From assembly GCA_021803425.1 (NCBI GenBank), contig JAJZLN010000004.1, positions 1 through 41,662 of the forward strand: DNA of 41,662 nt, in the 5' to 3' direction. Of the stretch, positions 24,725 to 33,252 are shown piece by piece. How positions within the stretch are numbered: position 1 is the stretch's first letter; each line of letters starts with the position of its first letter. The notes under the pieces are model-generated. The model had not been told where the DNA came from and ran no database searches. It saw only the letters and a list, made by a program, of their open reading frames with translations. Source of the DNA: Microcaldota archaeon (GTDB lineage Archaea > Micrarchaeota > Micrarchaeia > Micrarchaeales > CABMGC01). Both the position numbers and the translations under genes were made by a program.

Positions 24725-25162
24725 TCATTTGCGGTTTACCCATATCAATACTTCTATCTCGTCCTTTACGGCATCATTGCCATATTCATAAAGGAGCTGC
24801 CATCCGCGCCTTGTACCTCCTGAATTTAGCTTGTCTTGGCACTCACTTATTAGCAGCATATGTATTGCTTCGGATCCATTTTTTATTATGTTATACCAGC
24901 CTGCGCCGGAATTGTTGTCAAGCTTTTCTTGGTAATCCCTAATAAGTCGGATTTTTACCCCATTAGTGCCGTTGGCTGCAAGTTCCCTCCACCCCGTTCC
25001 GGAAAGAATATCAAGTTTTTCTTTGTAATCGTCTATGAGCTTCATCTGCAAAGACTCGTCGCCATGCATTATTATTTTATTGATCAGATCTACTGCATTT
25101 ACTGAATTAGATCCAGATAGCTTCTTGAATAGAAAATCCGGACAATCTCGCTTCATTTTCAT
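24725..25162 (-). CDS. Hypothetical helical-repeat protein
   Basis: A 145-residue protein of no recognised family. It consists of about three tandem 32-residue units with the pattern LIxDYxEKLDxxSGxGWxxLxxNGxxAVxxxLI. Clear copies start at LIDDYKEKLD, LIRDYQEKLD and LISECQDKLN, with a weaker unit before them. The regular spacing and amphipathic helices suggest an alpha-solenoid (HEAT/TPR-like) protein-binding scaffold. No signal peptide or membrane segment is seen. It begins 27 nt downstream of the tRNA-Ala gene on the same strand and may be read from the tRNA promoter, since no separate TATA box is obvious. Confidence 0.55.
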   Translation of the reverse strand: MKMKRDCPDFLFKKLSGSNSVNAVDLINKIIMHGDESLQMKLIDDYKEKLDILSGTGWRELAANGTNGVKIRLIRDYQEKLDNNSGAGWYNIIKNGSEAIHMLLISECQDKLNSGGTRRGWQLLYEYGNDAVKDEIEVLIWVNRK

Positions 25163-25189: not shown

Positions 25190-25284
25190 TGGACTTGTCG
25201 GGATTCGAACCCGAAACCTACCGCCTTATTGGCAGGCTTAAACCTGCATGCAAAGCGGTCGCTCTACCGTTGAGCCACAAGCCC
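25190..25284 (-). tRNA. tRNA-Ala (anticodon UGC) with a 23-nt intron
   Basis: Read on the minus strand: acceptor GGGCTTG/CAAGTCC (one G-U), D arm GCTC/GAGC, anticodon stem ACCGC/GCGGT, T arm TCGGG/CCCGA around TTCGAAT, and discriminator A. The anticodon loop begins TTTGCA (anticodon TGC, Ala). An insert at 25226-25248 then separates position 37 from 38, the usual place for archaeal introns. The insert contains a GCAGG/CCTGC hairpin. The spliced tRNA is 72 nt. CCA is not encoded. An AT-rich TATA-like box (ATATTTAAT) lies about 26 nt upstream. The exact splice junction may shift by a base. Confidence 0.88.
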
Positions 25285-25351: not shown

Positions 25352-25360
25352 GGTTTATAT
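25352..25360 (+). promoter_or_regulatory. TATA box of the acidic microprotein gene
   Basis: TTTATATAG lies about 58 nt before the ATG at 25414, predicting a leader near 30 nt that contains the GGTGG ribosome binding site. A good TATA box plus a good Shine-Dalgarno sequence suggests strong expression. Confidence 0.55.
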
Positions 25361-25413
25361 AGTTTTCTATTAAAAGGTTGCTTAAATATTAAGGAATTAT
25401 CTGGTGGAAAACC

Positions 25414-25518
25414 ATGGCAAAAGAAGAATTTGAAGACGACGAATCAGAAGATGAAGAAGAAAGCGACGACTTCGATGAAGAGGAATTTGAGGACGACGAC
25501 GACTTCGAAGAAGAGTAG
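25414..25518 (+). CDS. Extremely acidic 34-residue microprotein
   Basis: A small protein too short for most gene finders. Translation gives MAKEEFEDDESED..., in which 25 of 34 residues are Asp or Glu, with four Phe (6, 20, 25, 31) spaced among them, one Lys and two Ser. Coding is supported by the GGTGG ribosome binding site 8 nt before the ATG, a TATA box near 25356 and a nine-T run just after the stop. The family is unknown. A free acidic tail of this kind could mimic nucleic acid or bind basic proteins such as histones, ribosomal proteins or chaperones, with Phe as anchors. That is only inference. Confidence 0.6.
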   Translation: MAKEEFEDDESEDEEESDDFDEEEFEDDDDFEEE

Positions 25519-25527
25519 TTCCTTCGA

Positions 25528-25546
25528 TTTTGTTTTTTTTTATTTG
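25528..25546 (+). terminator. Poly-T terminator after the acidic microprotein
   Basis: ATTTTG is followed by nine T's (25533-25541) and then ATTTG, starting 10 nt after the TAG. Runs of T in the non-template strand are the usual archaeal termination signal. The short transcript so defined is about 150 nt. Confidence 0.55.
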
Positions 25547-25611: not shown

Positions 25612-26331
25612 CTACTGCACCTGATCCGAAAAATCCGCTGTTGTCTGGGCTACATTATCGGCACTGGCATCTGTACTTTTTTCTTCGACACTGTTTTGGG
25701 CATATGTCGGAGCAGATTCCGCAGCAGGTTCTCCTGCAGCCATATTGACTCTCATAAGAATCCTTATTGATTCCATTTTTGCCGCAATGGCACCCAACAT
25801 TATACCAACCTTGTTCAGCTCCTTGATAAGGCTCTTGCCAAAATTGACTTCGAGATCAATGAGTATCTTGTGCATTGAATCGACATTATCAAATTCTTCC
25901 CTGAGCTTTTCACTCATTTTATCGGTATTGGCTATGTTTACATAATACGCCTTACGCCCGTATGTTTCACCGCATAATTTTTCTACAGACTCATTTAACT
26001 TCTTCTTCATTTCTGCAACCCACCCAGCATCTACGTCATTCTTGAACACATTAAGTGTAAAGAAGGAATCTCTCATAAGCTTATCTATTTCATTGTTCTC
26101 TTCTTTAAAGTTCTTCTCATTAAGTGACGGATTTTTTTGCATTTCTGATTTTATTTTGTCGACTAGACTTGAAATCCTTCCGTAGTCCTGAGCTATGTGC
26201 TTCATAGTAGCTTCCTCAAGGGCGGATTTGATTGCGGGGTTGATTATTTGCGCTGCAGGATCCCCTTGTCTCTCAACACTTGACGTGATATTTGCTTCCT
26301 TAACGGGAGCTTTAAAGTCTGGAGCAGGCAT
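25612..26331 (-). CDS. Hypothetical coiled-coil protein downstream of the giant secreted protein
   Basis: A 239-residue soluble protein of unknown family. The central part is charged and helical, with likely coiled coils (for example MKKKLNESVEKL and MSEKLREEFDNVDSMHKIL). It ends in a low-complexity Ala/Glu/Ser/Thr-rich tail. No signal peptide or membrane segment is visible. ATG 26331 is chosen over the in-frame TTG at 26343 because GGTGTG lies just upstream of it. It follows the giant gene by 41 nt on the same strand, so the two are probably one operon, which hints at an intracellular partner for the giant protein's short basic cytoplasmic tail. No function is claimed. Confidence 0.65.
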   Translation of the reverse strand: MPAPDFKAPVKEANITSSVERQGDPAAQIINPAIKSALEEATMKHIAQDYGRISSLVDKIKSEMQKNPSLNEKNFKEENNEIDKLMRDSFFTLNVFKNDVDAGWVAEMKKKLNESVEKLCGETYGRKAYYVNIANTDKMSEKLREEFDNVDSMHKILIDLEVNFGKSLIKELNKVGIMLGAIAAKMESIRILMRVNMAAGEPAAESAPTYAQNSVEEKSTDASADNVAQTTADFSDQVQ

Positions 26332-26372
26332 TTTACACACCAATGTAATTGTAGCGGATTTGATATTAAATA

Positions 26373-29300
26373 CTATCCTTTAGCCCTCCTACGTTCAGCT
26401 CTGGACTTGGCTCTTTTATTAAGCCTGCCCTTGAATACCAAAGAGAGCGCGATTATTGAGATGCCCAAAAGAAGCATTATTAATGCGTCGAAGTTGCCTA
26501 TTGAAAGCAGTATCGATCCTATCGGCACGGTTGTGCCGGTCTCTGTTGGTGACCATGTGTAGCTGAATGCGTTGAATGTGACTGACTGAGAGCTGCTTGG
26601 GTTTGCAGCCTCACTTATAGGGGATTGCTTTGCCTGTATCGGCTGCGTAGGAGGTGTGCCATAGTATACTGCAGTTATCTTTGCATAGCCTGTGCCGCAT
26701 GCAACCACATTTGCGCCGAACTGGCCTCCAGGGTATACAGGCGCTATTGCAAAGAGGCCAAGCTGGCTTGTGCATATTCCAAGCCCATTGGAAGTGAACG
26801 GATAGCAGTATTGTGTAAGGCCCTGGGCAGTTGCAGGGCATTGCGCAGGAGGATTTTGGCCAGGTCCCATATTATTTATGTTGCAGAGGGTATAGCTTTG
26901 CGTTATAGGCGCAAGAAGACTGTTTGCCGGAGGAGAGCATGTATTCATGCCATTGTATGATGGATTGTACGTTATCACATTTGGCGTTATAGAAGGGGAG
27001 CCGTCTGGGAAAAGGTAGTTTGGATTGTATTGAAGCCCTGCAATTATTGGATTTGCAAGCGTGCATCCGCTATCGCTACTTGATCTTATGCTGTTGAATG
27101 CGCACGACTGCGCATCTACAGGATCTTCAACAGAATTATATCCTATTGTATTTAGATTAGTGTCGTAGTAAAGATATACGTTTCCGCTAGATAGAGGGAT
27201 TGGAGTTGTTGAAAGAGGCGGTGTCCATGAAACTATGCCATTTGCATATAACGTGGTCTCGTTTGTATTAAGGGTGTTTACAGAAGGCACAACATTGAAG
27301 TTAGTTATTTGGGTTATGTTTGATATATCTACGTCAAGAGGCATATAGACAATATTGTTGAACTGGTCATCGTATACAAACACAAGCCTGTGGTATCCGA
27401 ATGCTTGGAAATTAGGAAGGGCGGCAGGATCTCTTCCAGTCATGAGCAGGTTGAGCGAGATTGCGCTTGTAGGGTATTTGAACCAGTTGAAAAGCGCAAT
27501 GTAAAGCTTGTTTGTCGGAGTTGCAGAGAACAGGTCATTGACAGGATATGAGGGATTGGATTTTGCAAGCTCAGGAGGTATGCATGAGACTCCTGTGCAA
27601 GCATATGGCATGTTTTGCACTGATATGGTCTCGTATCCCGGAAGTTTTCCCTGCACATATGTATCTGAACCGTAGGTGTAGAAATTTATGGCGTTTATTG
27701 GGAGTTGTGAATTTGTTTGCGCAGACGTCGTTGAATTTATGTAGATTGTGCCGAACTGCCTGTTAGAGAGTATCGAATAGAGAAGCTGGCTCGGGAGTAT
27801 GACAGTTGAAAGATTTGCCTCATAGTACTGCGAAGTATTTATCTCAGATTGCGCATATGCATCGCCGCCGTTGATCTGCGCAACCTGCTGGTTGGAGTTT
27901 ATCTGAGGCGTGGTAGCATATGTATATACGGTTTGGGTTGAAGTAGATTGTTGATTTTGTGGGGCAGGACCAGTACAGAGACTTAACAGTGATGGTTTCT
28001 GATACTGTACATTGAACGTTTCAGCATAAGTATATGAATATGGAAATACGATGTATCCAGAGAGTATGCTCTGAAGTTCGGTTCCGAGAGGAGGAAGCGT
28101 CTGTGGCTGGTAATTTATATTTAGTGTTGAAGGAGCACTTGACTGGAATTGGCTGAGAAGGCTCTGAGCTGCATTAGATATGACTGATGCACAGTTCCCG
28201 TTTCCCCCATTCCCACTCCCTGAATTTTCTATATCCTGTGGGGTACAGCTTGAAGAAGATCCGGACCCGCTTCCGGAGCCGCCGCCAAGCCCGGCCAGTC
28301 CAGAGCCTGCCAAAGTATCAAGAGTATAAGCCTGATATCCACCTATATTTTCGTCAAACTGGAATGGGTTTGGCAAAATGTAGACTGGAGGCATTAAATT
28401 TTCTACATTTGGATTGTATGTGCATGTTCCGGAAGAGTATTGATCATAAGTATAGCAATTATAAGTCGCTTGTGATGGATTCAGACCTCCAATCTGTTTG
28501 GTATAGTTCTGCGGATTTAGGCTTGCAGTTATTAATTCGCCATAGCCATTTGCATATTGTATTGAAGACCCTCCATTGTTTTGTATGTCATATCTAGACC
28601 TAATGTATAGTGAAGCTGTGTTGTTGTATGAAACTGAAAAGCCAGTATCGATGAGTGGAACTGGGCCGCAAGCATGATGCCCTGTTCCGAATAGAGTAAT
28701 TGAGATGCCAGGAACTGCGCCAGGATAGCAGCTCCAAGATAGCATTTCTGGACCAATTGGGCTTAGAGAGCCGGGATATGTCGGATCTGGAGAATAGCAA
28801 GGGGTAGAGCTAGAAAATCCAGCTTGACGAGTTGTTGAGAATCCTTGAGCAACTTCAAGCGTATTTGGATTGCATAAATTTATTATTTCTTGAGCATCAG
28901 CACCACTTGTTATGTTTGCGGATATAATCCAGCCAAATGGAGGATAACCGAATGGACTTGATTGAGTATACCTTGCCAAGGAAGTGTGTGAATTATCTGT
29001 ATAATACCAAAGATCATTGTAGTAAGTTGGATTTATAGGCACATCGATTCCGCTTGTATTTATTACCCTTAAATCCAATATGTTAAATCTGATTCCGGGA
29101 CCACTGTTACATCCAAATATCCCATTTACGCATGGTTCTCCAGCAACGCCATACCAGTCATCAAGCACATACAAATAGCCATTGACATCCGCTATTCCCA
29201 ATGGATGATGATAGGTCTGTTTATCAAGTTGATCTTGTGAAGCAGATGAAGGTAAATTATTATCATAATTTTGTATTATGGTTTTCATAATGCTATCAGC

Positions 29301-32300
29301 AGCAGTACATGAGCTTTTGCAATTGGCATTTATTCCGTAAAGTCCGCCGTTCGCGAAATAATCTATGATATTTGCTGCAGGTGATTCTGTACTTCCTACC
29401 TGCTGACTGCCCTGAACTGTTGGATTTGTAAATGAGGGAGTAGAGTAAAGGACATTATCAGAAGTAAAACTCAGACCTATTTGACTTTCGTATGCAAGGT
29501 CTGCGCCGCTGAATTCGAGTATATTTCCTGAACCAGGGGCTGCAAGATAGACCTGATCACCATATGGAGATGCTGCAATCTCAGGCCATGGAGGCGAAGA
29601 ATCCTGAGACTGTATAAAATCATAAAAATAAGAATGAATAGCGCAATTGCCTGGAGGCGCAGCGCCCGAATATGGAGTAAGGCCAAGGAGATTACATATA
29701 GGCGCTGCTGATATGCTTATTGGACCACCACCTACTGCATTGGCTATCTTTACAAGCCAATAGTTATTAGGCTGGCCTGAAGATGAAACGTAGCCGGTTA
29801 TGAACACATCTCCAAAAAGATCAGAGGTTACATTTACTGGTGTGAATGTTGCACCAGGTTCGTAGTTCTGTATCTGGCTCAATATTGGATATGAAAATGA
29901 TATTGGTATAGCATTTACAATATATAGATTCTGGCTCTGAAGCTTCTGTACGTTGTTCCAGTATGTATTCCAATTTTGCGTGAATGCTGATTGCGAGCTT
30001 GCCGAAGGAACAGTATTCGGCGGGTACAATGATGTATTATAGTATCCGCTAGGTATTTGCTTTAGTATGTAAAGATTTATTCCAGGATATGATATTGAAC
30101 TCTGGTACTGCTGCTCCTGAGGAGTAAGTGATTGTGACTGAGACTGTGAAGAGGATGCAAGGCCAACAGGTACAGGATAGTTTAGCCATTGTTTAATATA
30201 CGTTCCAGCGGCATCATTTGGCAGCTGGCAGCCACTAGGAGACGAACACGATTTTCCAAGTGCTTCTAGATCATTAAAGAATTGTATATTGTTGTTGCTA
30301 TTGATGCATTCTGGAGGATTTACACCAATGTAGTTGCAAGTGCCCCATGCGCTGAAATCATTAATGTAATCACTAGGAGAGTTCAGTAAACACAATATAT
30401 ATTCTCCTGGGCATGCGCCTGATTGCTGCTTATTCTGAAGTACGAGATATATATCTGATGACTGTTGACCAACTGAAATACTTCCGACGGTCCCCAATAT
30501 TCCATCTTTTGCGTTATTAAAGGCTGTTGGTTTGTTGCCAGAAAATAAAGGATTTGGTTGTGTTGTTTGCCAAGGACCAGAACCAATGTAAAGCGGATCG
30601 TAGAATGCAGTTGCTCCTGAAGAAAGAAGCGGGTCTCCTTGATAACCGCTGAAATATTGGTTTCCCCAATTGTTGTTTTGGTAATAGGCCCATAAAGCAA
30701 GGAAGTATATGCTTGCCTGCTCATTTCCACCATTAACTCTCATTTCACACAGCACGTCCTGGAAGAATTGGTACTCGGTTATTGTAGTCTGGCTTGGTGA
30801 AGGAAGACAGTTGTCCTGGCTTGAGGAAGATTGGGATGCTTGGGGAGACTGTCCAAGCACGAATGTGTATCCACTAGGTATTGATGCGATTGATGTTGGA
30901 TTAAGTATCTGGGTTGTTAAATATGAAGAGGTACTTGATATACTGGACCCTTGAACTTGGCTTCCTGAAAGAGCACTATAAGCAGCTTGAGCTTGTGCTT
31001 CTCTAACTGGAGCATTGCATTCCCCATACATACCGGTTCCACCGACATTTGGAGTATTATAACCATTGCATTTTTCAAAATCCTGCATGAATGCTATTGC
31101 AGCTTGGGTTGGATCTGTTCCAGAATAGAATGATGTGCTACCTAACCTGGAAATTATTGTTTGTATTTGTGCTGTTAGGTCGGCTTGCTCATTTCCAGTA
31201 ACTAATGATGATTCAGTGTATCCACCACCTGTAGTAAAACAGACCATACCGAAGCAATTTGAGCCCGTATTTTCTTCTACATTAATATTCTCATAACTTT
31301 GCCCGCCGGTTTCTTGAGCTGCATTTCCCATTATGCCTGCAGCTTCTACTTGGCTAAATCCAGCACTAATAAGAGCATCCCAAATCATTTGTGCATTTGA
31401 AGAAGAAGTTGAAGATGTTGTAGTTGATGCACCTTCAGAAGAACCAGCGAATTCCAAGCCGATCTGCTGCTGCGGATTTTGGAAGTCTACTTGAGCAGGA
31501 TTGCCCGCAAGTCGTAGAGGATTGCTTAAAAGGTTGAAATAAGAAAGAGAGCTGCTTCCAGAAGAAGGCGCGTAATTACTTAGGAAGAAGCCCATTGAGT
31601 TTATAGTAAACGGCTCTATCACATTCTGAGGGATTTTATAGTTCTGAGGGCTGTAGATATCATAGGATAGGCTCAATGAGTCTCCTACAGTAGGATTGAT
31701 TACGTTTGCATTGTACACAAAATAAGGTAATATGTCTAAATTCATACCGCTGCTGCCAATAGGGAATGGTATTTGGGCGCTGCCTATGCTGTCAAGAGTA
31801 GCAGTCGAAGTTATGGTATATGGATATGAACAGGTAGCAGAAGGTACTTGAAGTCCACCGCCGGGCGCATTCTGCTGGAATTGAGAGAGAAGATATGTAT
31901 GTAGCGCATCCGGTTGATATGTTGTAGCCCACATTTGCATTTGTGTTATTACAGCAGGAGTCACACCAGGAAGATCCAATTGCGCACTGCTTGAATACAT
32001 CATGACAGTTTGTAAGTCATTAACTAATGTGGAAAAAGAGGCACCACTGACAAGATCTGATCCAATGTCTGCTACTTGACCTTGATTTGTAGGGGAACTG
32101 CCCGTCAAGTCGCCGCCTGTTAAAAGATCGGATATCGTACTGACCCCATCGGCTGAGCTTGAATATATGTTATAAGATATACTTGTTCCGGTTGACGCAC
32201 CGCCATTAATAGAATATTGTTGTATTGAAGCCCCAGATGCTGGAAAATAAGTGTAAGTACTGCATGGATTAGGATATGTAGTTGAACTCACCTGAATTTC

Positions 32301-33227
32301 CAACGGATTCCATCCTTTGAAATATGTTCCTCCTGAAGTTTGCGCCTCTGCTACTGCAAGGGCTTCTAGAAAATCAATATTTGTTGTAGTAACGGGATCG
32401 CCGGCAGCAGATAATGCCTCTGCAAAAAATGCATCTGGAAACGAAGGATTGCTTGATAATGGATTTGGCTGCGCGCATGACGATGCAGTTGGGGTGTATG
32501 TACCAGATGCAGTCGAAGTTACTCTAAGTTGTCCATTATAATTGCTTCCTAACGCACCTGCATCTGCATACAGCCCATTCCATGTCCACAGTCCCTGCTG
32601 CCCGTACACAGGCGCTTCATCGAATATGTATGAATTTGTGTTGAATGAAGTCGAAATGTAGTTGCCGTCTGGAGTTGTTACCATTGGAGAGTATCCTAGA
32701 TTTGTAAGCGTAAATTGCGCTACATTCTGGAGGTTTACATTCACAGCTACATCAGAAGAACTTGGTTGCTGAGTTGGATCGGAAGGGAGTGTGACAGAAT
32801 CAGACAAGATTACTTGTGGAGCTTGAGGGTTTGGATTGGAAGCTTCCTGGCAAAGATTGCCTGCAGGATGCCAATTTCCAGGAGAACCTGGAGTTGAAGT
32901 TGATATAAGCTGCGCATCTGTCGGATTTGGCAGCTCTGGAGGATAAGGGCATGTCAAAAGATATAGCGCATTGTTTGCATTGTATTGGTATACATTCAAT
33001 GCAGGAGAAAGAGGATATGGAGTCTGCTGCGGGGTTGAAAGCGGACTTGGAGCAAGTGCCTGCTGATCTGAAGCTCCGAACGGTAATTGCAGTGTTTCAG
33101 TCGCAGAACAAGTAGTTGAGGATGAAGATGTTGAACACGGCAGCTGTTGCTGGGCGTGCACAAGATTTGCGCTGAGTACGAGCATGAATGCAAAAAGCAT
33201 AGTTATGATTATATAGTTCATGCGCAT
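26373..33227 (-). CDS. Giant secreted, C-terminally anchored protein with phage-tail-lysozyme-like domain
   Basis: A 2,284-residue protein rich in Ser, Gln, Asn, Tyr and Pro. It begins with a signal peptide (MNYIIITMLFAFMLVLSANLVHA, ending AQQQ) and ends with one membrane helix (DALIMLLLGISIIALSLVF) and a basic tail, so nearly all of it lies outside the cell. Around residues 610-760, IWDALISAGFSQVEAAGIMGNAAQETGG and later segments resemble the phage tail lysozyme family, with Glu639 as the candidate catalytic acid. A central region (VFITGYVSSSG..., GDQVYLAAPGSGNILEFSG) has propeller-like strands. A Gly/Ser linker lies near residue 1650. Cysteines are numerous. ATG 33227 is preferred over TTG 33242. 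The role, perhaps surface contact with a host cell, is inferred. Confidence 0.82.
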   Translation of the reverse strand: MRMNYIIITMLFAFMLVLSANLVHAQQQLPCSTSSSSTTCSATETLQLPFGASDQQALAPSPLSTPQQTPYPLSPALNVYQYNANNALYLLTCPYPPELPNPTDAQLISTSTPGSPGNWHPAGNLCQEASNPNPQAPQVILSDSVTLPSDPTQQPSSSDVAVNVNLQNVAQFTLTNLGYSPMVTTPDGNYISTSFNTNSYIFDEAPVYGQQGLWTWNGLYADAGALGSNYNGQLRVTSTASGTYTPTASSCAQPNPLSSNPSFPDAFFAEALSAAGDPVTTTNIDFLEALAVAEAQTSGGTYFKGWNPLEIQVSSTTYPNPCSTYTYFPASGASIQQYSINGGASTGTSISYNIYSSSADGVSTISDLLTGGDLTGSSPTNQGQVADIGSDLVSGASFSTLVNDLQTVMMYSSSAQLDLPGVTPAVITQMQMWATTYQPDALHTYLLSQFQQNAPGGGLQVPSATCSYPYTITSTATLDSIGSAQIPFPIGSSGMNLDILPYFVYNANVINPTVGDSLSLSYDIYSPQNYKIPQNVIEPFTINSMGFFLSNYAPSSGSSSLSYFNLLSNPLRLAGNPAQVDFQNPQQQIGLEFAGSSEGASTTTSSTSSSNAQMIWDALISAGFSQVEAAGIMGNAAQETGGQSYENINVEENTGSNCFGMVCFTTGGGYTESSLVTGNEQADLTAQIQTIISRLGSTSFYSGTDPTQAAIAFMQDFEKCNGYNTPNVGGTGMYGECNAPVREAQAQAAYSALSGSQVQGSSISSTSSYLTTQILNPTSIASIPSGYTFVLGQSPQASQSSSSQDNCLPSPSQTTITEYQFFQDVLCEMRVNGGNEQASIYFLALWAYYQNNNWGNQYFSGYQGDPLLSSGATAFYDPLYIGSGPWQTTQPNPLFSGNKPTAFNNAKDGILGTVGSISVGQQSSDIYLVLQNKQQSGACPGEYILCLLNSPSDYINDFSAWGTCNYIGVNPPECINSNNNIQFFNDLEALGKSCSSPSGCQLPNDAAGTYIKQWLNYPVPVGLASSSQSQSQSLTPQEQQYQSSISYPGINLYILKQIPSGYYNTSLYPPNTVPSASSQSAFTQNWNTYWNNVQKLQSQNLYIVNAIPISFSYPILSQIQNYEPGATFTPVNVTSDLFGDVFITGYVSSSGQPNNYWLVKIANAVGGGPISISAAPICNLLGLTPYSGAAPPGNCAIHSYFYDFIQSQDSSPPWPEIAASPYGDQVYLAAPGSGNILEFSGADLAYESQIGLSFTSDNVLYSTPSFTNPTVQGSQQVGSTESPAANIIDYFANGGLYGINANCKSSCTAADSIMKTIIQNYDNNLPSSASQDQLDKQTYHHPLGIADVNGYLYVLDDWYGVAGEPCVNGIFGCNSGPGIRFNILDLRVINTSGIDVPINPTYYNDLWYYTDNSHTSLARYTQSSPFGYPPFGWIISANITSGADAQEIINLCNPNTLEVAQGFSTTRQAGFSSSTPCYSPDPTYPGSLSPIGPEMLSWSCYPGAVPGISITLFGTGHHACGPVPLIDTGFSVSYNNTASLYIRSRYDIQNNGGSSIQYANGYGELITASLNPQNYTKQIGGLNPSQATYNCYTYDQYSSGTCTYNPNVENLMPPVYILPNPFQFDENIGGYQAYTLDTLAGSGLAGLGGGSGSGSGSSSSCTPQDIENSGSGNGGNGNCASVISNAAQSLLSQFQSSAPSTLNINYQPQTLPPLGTELQSILSGYIVFPYSYTYAETFNVQYQKPSLLSLCTGPAPQNQQSTSTQTVYTYATTPQINSNQQVAQINGGDAYAQSEINTSQYYEANLSTVILPSQLLYSILSNRQFGTIYINSTTSAQTNSQLPINAINFYTYGSDTYVQGKLPGYETISVQNMPYACTGVSCIPPELAKSNPSYPVNDLFSATPTNKLYIALFNWFKYPTSAISLNLLMTGRDPAALPNFQAFGYHRLVFVYDDQFNNIVYMPLDVDISNITQITNFNVVPSVNTLNTNETTLYANGIVSWTPPLSTTPIPLSSGNVYLYYDTNLNTIGYNSVEDPVDAQSCAFNSIRSSSDSGCTLANPIIAGLQYNPNYLFPDGSPSITPNVITYNPSYNGMNTCSPPANSLLAPITQSYTLCNINNMGPGQNPPAQCPATAQGLTQYCYPFTSNGLGICTSQLGLFAIAPVYPGGQFGANVVACGTGYAKITAVYYGTPPTQPIQAKQSPISEAANPSSSQSVTFNAFSYTWSPTETGTTVPIGSILLSIGNFDALIMLLLGISIIALSLVFKGRLNKRAKSRAERRRAKG

Positions 33228-33252
33228 GTTTGAGCAACCCAATTCTGCCTTT

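Follow-up and report, generated by a model that had tools for sequence, protein, structure and literature searches.

The window analysed here, a 41,662-nucleotide (nt) stretch of DNA from an archaeon of the Micrarchaeota (contig JAJZLN010000004.1 of assembly GCA_021803425.1; contig C11 of a genome totalling 880,901 bases), carries a short gene for a polyacidic microprotein. The open reading frame (ORF) encodes 34 residues, MAKEEFEDDESEDEEESDDFDEEEFEDDDDFEEE, of which 25 are Asp or Glu (74%), with Phe at positions 6, 20, 25 and 31, and is closed by a TAG stop codon at 25516–25518. The upstream TATA element, TTTATATAG, begins at 25354, and transcription presumably starts near GCTTA, judging from archaeal TATA spacing. 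The first-pass annotation had described a complete transcription unit, with a TATA box, a GGTGG ribosome-binding site, an ATG, 34 codons with 25 acidic residues and four Phe, a stop codon and nine T's, and all of these elements are indeed in place (Table 1). Because the downstream ORF is convergent, the microprotein gene is monocistronic at this locus.

Table 1. The microprotein gene of the window, its signals and its neighbours (positions in the window)
Feature	Position	Strand	Basis or remark
Polyacidic microprotein gene	25414..25518	+	ATG at 25414; 34 codons plus TAG; homologues and codon-position bias
Conserved promoter block AAGGTTTATATAGTTTTCTATTAAAAGGTTGCTTAA	25350..25385	+	TATA box and following sequence, reaching the presumed transcription start near GCTTA; identity in the genus
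Ribosome-binding site GGTGG	25403..25407	+	GGTG or GGT[AT]GA in 36/40 copies
T9 run, probable terminator	25533..25541	+	60 nt downstream T-rich among copies
tRNA-Ala(TGC) with 23-nt anticodon-loop intron, divergent neighbour	25190..25284	-	Intron-aware ARAGORN; synteny
Convergent downstream ORF, no Pfam family	25612..26343	-	Marks the microprotein gene as monocistronic here

It is near certain that this is a real protein gene under strong purifying selection. Within the genus of the window genome, a single-sequence search found copies in eight of the 12 genomes, including its own, and profile and pattern searches raised this number to ten; genus members G005 and G006 gave neither a copy nor a match to the tRNA-Ala pattern. 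In the codon alignment of the ten genus members, the pairwise differences summed over all pairs were 112, 124 and 798 at codon positions 1, 2 and 3, with 7, 7 and 28 variable sites, respectively, among 31 ungapped codon columns. These figures are the opposite of the unconserved frame, with substitutions blind to codon position, that the first-pass annotation had named as grounds for discarding the gene. The skew is repeated inside four other genera of the window's family (f1) and inside seven genera of a sister family (f2) in the same order of Micrarchaeota; there the pairs were aligned as proteins and the Asp and Glu codons have the same first two bases, so that part of the skew arises because the acidic composition is preserved, a preservation that we count as the selection itself. 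All 14 sequences of the first broader alignment have Phe at positions 20 and 25, encoded with a varying third base.

The flanking signals are also conserved. Mean pairwise identity in the genus is 0.75 over the 36-nt promoter block, 0.35 over the preceding 36 nt and 0.26 over the 60 nt past the stop codon. Signals were tabulated for 40 copies, namely 37 from f1, one from a foreign contig in the genome bin G091 (see below), and those of G037 and G052 from f2. A TATA-like TTTA[AT]AT[AG] lies within 90 nt upstream of 36 of the 40, against 2.4% of 2851 background ATGs, and GGTG or GGT[AT]GA lies at most 20 nt from the start in 36 of the 40, against 5.4% of the background. The mean T fraction over the 60 nt past the stop codon is 0.44 in the copies and 0.27 in the background. 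Among 3708 ATG ORFs of 25–60 amino acids (aa) in Micrarchaeota DNA gathered around the gene, 109 rows reach 50% Asp/Glu, and all of them are the window's gene or four more members of the same family; the sample consists of overlapping loci collected around the gene, and this count is therefore a specificity check and not an unbiased rate. The frame is very short, low in complexity and unmatched in libraries, as would be expected if it were a chance ORF or a small RNA and no protein were made. However, the codon-position bias, the conservation of the frame and the retention of ribosome-binding sites and start codons make such a non-coding explanation hardly credible. These features, the promoter, start signal and T-run found with most copies, and the synteny beside tRNA-Ala described next strongly support the earlier proposal of a genuine microprotein.

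The f1 genomes were searched with the pattern ATG GCN AAR AAR followed by five GAN codons (at most three mismatches, 79 genomes), the frames were then read, and the search was extended by a scan of tRNA-Ala loci and a broader profile. Homologues or positional counterparts were found in 39 of the 79 genomes, which we tallied to 13 genera. No copy was recovered from the other 40; since these searches favour a MAKK start or tRNA-Ala synteny, we do not claim absence there. An acidic gene lies divergently within about 430 nt of tRNA-Ala at 20 of the 33 f1 tRNA-Ala loci scanned. The remaining 13 comprise nine genomes in which the gene is farther away, elsewhere or at another tRNA-Ala copy, and four (G017, G019, G040 and G060) that gave no acidic gene. 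Further adjacencies occur in G048, G092, G093, G097 and G098, and the synteny beside tRNA-Ala that had been suggested as a check on the gene recurs among f1 relatives. None of 37 f2 tRNA-Ala loci has an acidic gene. Of the 35 f1 copies with enough sequence (those of G061 and G074 are too short to judge), 33 face a convergent downstream neighbour, which implies that the product itself must matter and acts in trans.

In family f2, the gene is found in a different position. Four f2 members detected by similarity (G156, G131, G052 and G037) each lie just upstream of a gene for the AAA unfoldase CDC48/VAT, whose product has the Pfam domains CDC48_N, CDC48_2 and AAA; in G156 the distance is 235 nt. 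A search with the CDC48 N-terminal region gave matches in 132 of 164 genomes across the order. We read 66 f2-type CDC48 loci, 65 from f2 genomes and one on contig C81 of G091, a bin assigned to f1. By scan, 52 of the 66 have an acidic frame immediately upstream and in the same orientation, and G107 brings the count to 53. Without the G091 contig, the gene is upstream of CDC48 in 52 of 65 f2 genomes, by our tally in 22 genera. Contig C81 carries an f2-type CDC48, 84% identical to the f2 query, while a second, f1-like copy is present on another contig of the bin, and C81 is probably bin contamination. On its other flank, the f2 acidic gene has EF-1alpha in 15 loci; the remaining neighbours fall into 28 other ORF clusters, some of them spurious. 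With this flank so scattered, general gene-order conservation fails to explain the pairing with CDC48, which is the strongest functional lead. In G139 (L380 74–895, +), a gene for NFACT-R, the RNA-binding domain of RqcH/NEMF (E 1.1e-31), is followed by the acidic gene and then by CDC48.

The position just upstream of CDC48 could mean that the frame is a leader ORF, the acidic codons of which would slow or destabilise ribosomes and so regulate CDC48 in cis. Acidic nascent chains are known to destabilise ribosomes, and 33 of 52 f2 spacers have no TATA-like motif 60 to 22 nt before CDC48. A same-strand downstream gene, as a leader would need, is present in f2 but lacking in the window and in f1, where the convergent next gene leaves nothing to regulate in cis and the frame is nevertheless under strong purifying selection. 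Cis regulation is therefore largely refuted for f1, and we consider it very improbable as a general explanation.

The proteins themselves share a simple design. Across both families, the members have 27–53 aa, 43–89% Asp/Glu and a net charge of -18 to -31; the 39 f1 members have 31–50 aa, 54–76% Asp/Glu and a net charge of -21 to -28, and are free of Cys. An N-terminal head with one to three Lys (MAK, MAKK or MPK) precedes a tail packed with Asp and Glu and almost devoid of Lys and Arg, with only one such basic residue past residue 12 in all 39 f1 proteins together. All 39 also have at least one aromatic residue past residue 8, in a context that varies by genus: DDFDEEEF in the window, EDWDEDM in genera g4 and g8, and EDDYDDEY in part of g37. 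The window protein contains the acidic–aromatic motifs DDF, EEF and DDF. In f2, 15 of 53 members lack an aromatic residue past residue 8, and seven lack any hydrophobic residue there. Given that these anchors are present in all f1 members but missing in 15 f2 members, the polyanionic character is the shared property. AlphaFold2 predicted no secondary structure, with a mean predicted local distance difference test score of 65 and a predicted template modelling score of 0.14, values of low confidence that are only consistent with disorder; the chain may thus be intrinsically disordered in vivo.

This architecture recalls the DEF/Y-motif histone chaperones Chz1, Swr1, Spt16, YL1 and Anp32e, in which runs of Asp and Glu are followed by a single aromatic residue in a region that is unstructured alone; the motif is described as binding histone dimers through the aromatic residue in a pocket (PMC6544321), and the binding in this family involves an arginine finger as well as the hydrophobic pocket. 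The microprotein could accordingly be a minimal chaperone of histones or other nucleoid proteins, or a DNA mimic, with the acids covering the DNA-binding surface of the histone dimer and Phe, Trp or Tyr filling the hydrophobic pocket. The aromatic residue in the acidic tail of all 39 f1 members, typically within DDF, EEF, EDW or DDY, fits this idea, and all 60 relatives searched have histone-fold genes. However, since every genome searched has histones, their presence does not discriminate; the idea fits poorly the f2 members that lack the aromatic anchors such a chaperone would require; and it is tRNA-Ala and CDC48 that recur beside the gene, rather than histone genes. Moreover, DEF/Y motifs sit in larger proteins, while from genus to genus the aromatic residue of the microprotein is swapped for W, Y, M or L. 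A histone-directed role is possible, but we regard it as unlikely.

Several f2 members are nearly pure Asp/Glu without hydrophobics and would suit an ion or proton buffer, that is, a pool of carboxylates for Mg2+, other cations, polyamines or protons in the cytoplasm of an acidophile. Acidic habitats are usual in this group, as far as published abstracts describe them. A buffer needs no anchors, whereas every f1 member has them and F20 and F25 are invariant in the 14 sequences of the first broader alignment, and buffering is therefore an improbable primary function.

Free polyacidic disordered proteins exist in eukaryotes. Prothymosin alpha and the ANP32/SET-type tails are polyanionic and disordered, as the microprotein would be, but they are eukaryotic, and that of ANP32 extends from a folded domain, whereas the microprotein is free, archaeal and only 27–53 aa long; no sequence relation between them was detectable. 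DSS1/Sem1, a small acidic protein of the proteasome lid, is linked to degradation and has aromatic anchors. DSS1 has about 70 aa and is eukaryotic, and no DSS1/Sem1 match was found for 14 members searched against Pfam at E up to 10, or among PDB sequences. A possible likeness to cofactors of CDC48/p97 lies in the gene kept beside CDC48 in f2, though at none of the 25 f1 loci read; known CDC48 cofactor motifs were not recognised by eye in the microprotein.

More generally, the f1-type members searched had no match in PDB sequences, Pfam or NCBIfam. The 14 members searched against Pfam gave nothing at E up to 10, a profile search of PDB sequences was likewise empty, and one of three f2 peptides gave sub-threshold noise only in Pfam. 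In a pattern scan of GTDB, of which the best 80 of 100 stretches were read, acidic stretches outside Micrarchaeota were mostly inside longer or unrelated frames, and we therefore claim no wider distribution. No description of such an archaeal protein was found in the literature searched, most subscription papers lying outside its reach, and the protein is apparently undescribed.

The linkage to CDC48 suggests protein quality control rather than the functions put forward in the first-pass annotation, namely a nucleic-acid mimic, a histone or ribosomal-protein chaperone, or an acidic tail acting in trans. We tentatively favour, at clearly less than even odds, an electrostatic chaperone or adaptor, a free disordered polyanion that would act in trans in CDC48-linked quality control. 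The microprotein, which may be abundant, would be transcribed alone, in f1 from a strong-looking TATA promoter, and its polyanionic chain, with the hydrophobic anchors, would bind exposed basic or unfolded protein surfaces. The bound proteins would be kept soluble by the polyanion, and these clients might then be handed to the CDC48/VAT unfoldase, or the unfoldase might itself be modulated, leading into the 20S proteasome pathway. Both the chaperone activity and any contact with CDC48 are conjectural. A precedent for the term is ANP32, which is called an "electrostatic chaperone" (PMC11333492).

Several observations weigh against this proposal. Linkage is not function, and 13 of the 65 f2 genomes have no acidic gene at CDC48 (G029, G031, G034, G054, G055, G056, G057, G122, G137, G141, G142, G146, for which only 243 nt are available, and G155). 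In f1, none of the 25 CDC48 loci read, from a family in which 67 genomes have a CDC48 match, has an acidic neighbour. The spacer between the acidic gene and CDC48 ranges from 87 to 593 nt, and 49 of 52 acidic genes are followed by a T-run of at least four; with such wide spacing and a T-run, the two genes are probably not one simple operon. Finally, although we infer that the f1 and f2 genes are homologous rather than analogous, their low-complexity sequence makes this unprovable by alignment. Another connection, in which the microprotein would supply CDC48 with an acidic tail in trans, is disfavoured: of 20 micrarchaeal CDC48 C-termini read, 19 end in ..MYR, an HbYX-like proteasome-docking end, both with and without a linked acidic gene, and the twentieth, that of G013, was left out because of a wrong frame.

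CDC48 takes part in quality control in eukaryotes, and the microprotein might be a factor of ribosome-associated quality control, acting where stalled nascent chains receive alanine tails and are extracted by CDC48. Three neighbours would fit what is known of it elsewhere, namely tRNA-Ala(TGC) in f1, CDC48 in f2 and NFACT-R in G139. RqcH of Bacillus subtilis recruits tRNA-Ala(UGC) and tRNA-Ala(GGC), and the authors consider it possible that archaea and eukaryotes have a tailing cofactor still to be discovered (PMC8373112). However, NFACT-R is a neighbour in only one of 65 genomes, a tRNA gene is nothing unusual as a neighbour, and the known bacterial cofactor RqcP binds RNA (PMC8373112), while the microprotein is a polyanion. 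A dedicated factor of this kind is therefore doubtful. Equally speculative is a broader version, in which quality control in archaea, ribosome-associated or general, would depend on an order-wide small cofactor encoded by the gene, a minimal, 30-residue electrostatic chaperone that would work with CDC48 and with the alanine tailing of stalled chains.

Around the gene, the neighbour named as tRNA-Ala by the first-pass annotation proved to be tRNA-Ala(TGC) once the 23-nt intron was allowed for. The default ARAGORN run called tRNA-Met(CAT), an artefact of this anticodon-loop intron; in the intron-aware run the third acceptor pair is G-U. The intron is missing from the copies in 14 aligned relatives. 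We also sought a promoter regulon: the TATA block has one exact match genome-wide, and with up to three mismatches there are 33 matches against 62 for the control, which argues against a shared promoter regulon. At 24728–25162 (-), a 145-aa frame without a Pfam family contains three degenerate repeats (LIDDYKEKLD, LIRDYQEKLD and LISECQDKLN). The frame at 26373–33242 (-) has 2289 aa, with a secreted-like start and a hydrophobic segment plus a basic tail at its end, and is possibly a surface or S-layer-type protein; several relatives also have giant ORFs resembling it on the downstream side of the acidic gene.

To conclude, our work describes a protein that strong selection maintains throughout an order of genome-reduced archaea, of a kind so short and low in complexity that gene callers and family libraries overlook it. 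In Candidatus Micrarchaeum harzensis, hypothetical proteins make up 60% of the ten most expressed genes, a figure given with reference to unpublished data (PMC8623467). This cultured organism very probably carries the gene, and the linkage to CDC48 makes a role in quality control directly testable there. The microprotein offers a natural minimal system in which to ask how a bare polyanion functions in the cell.
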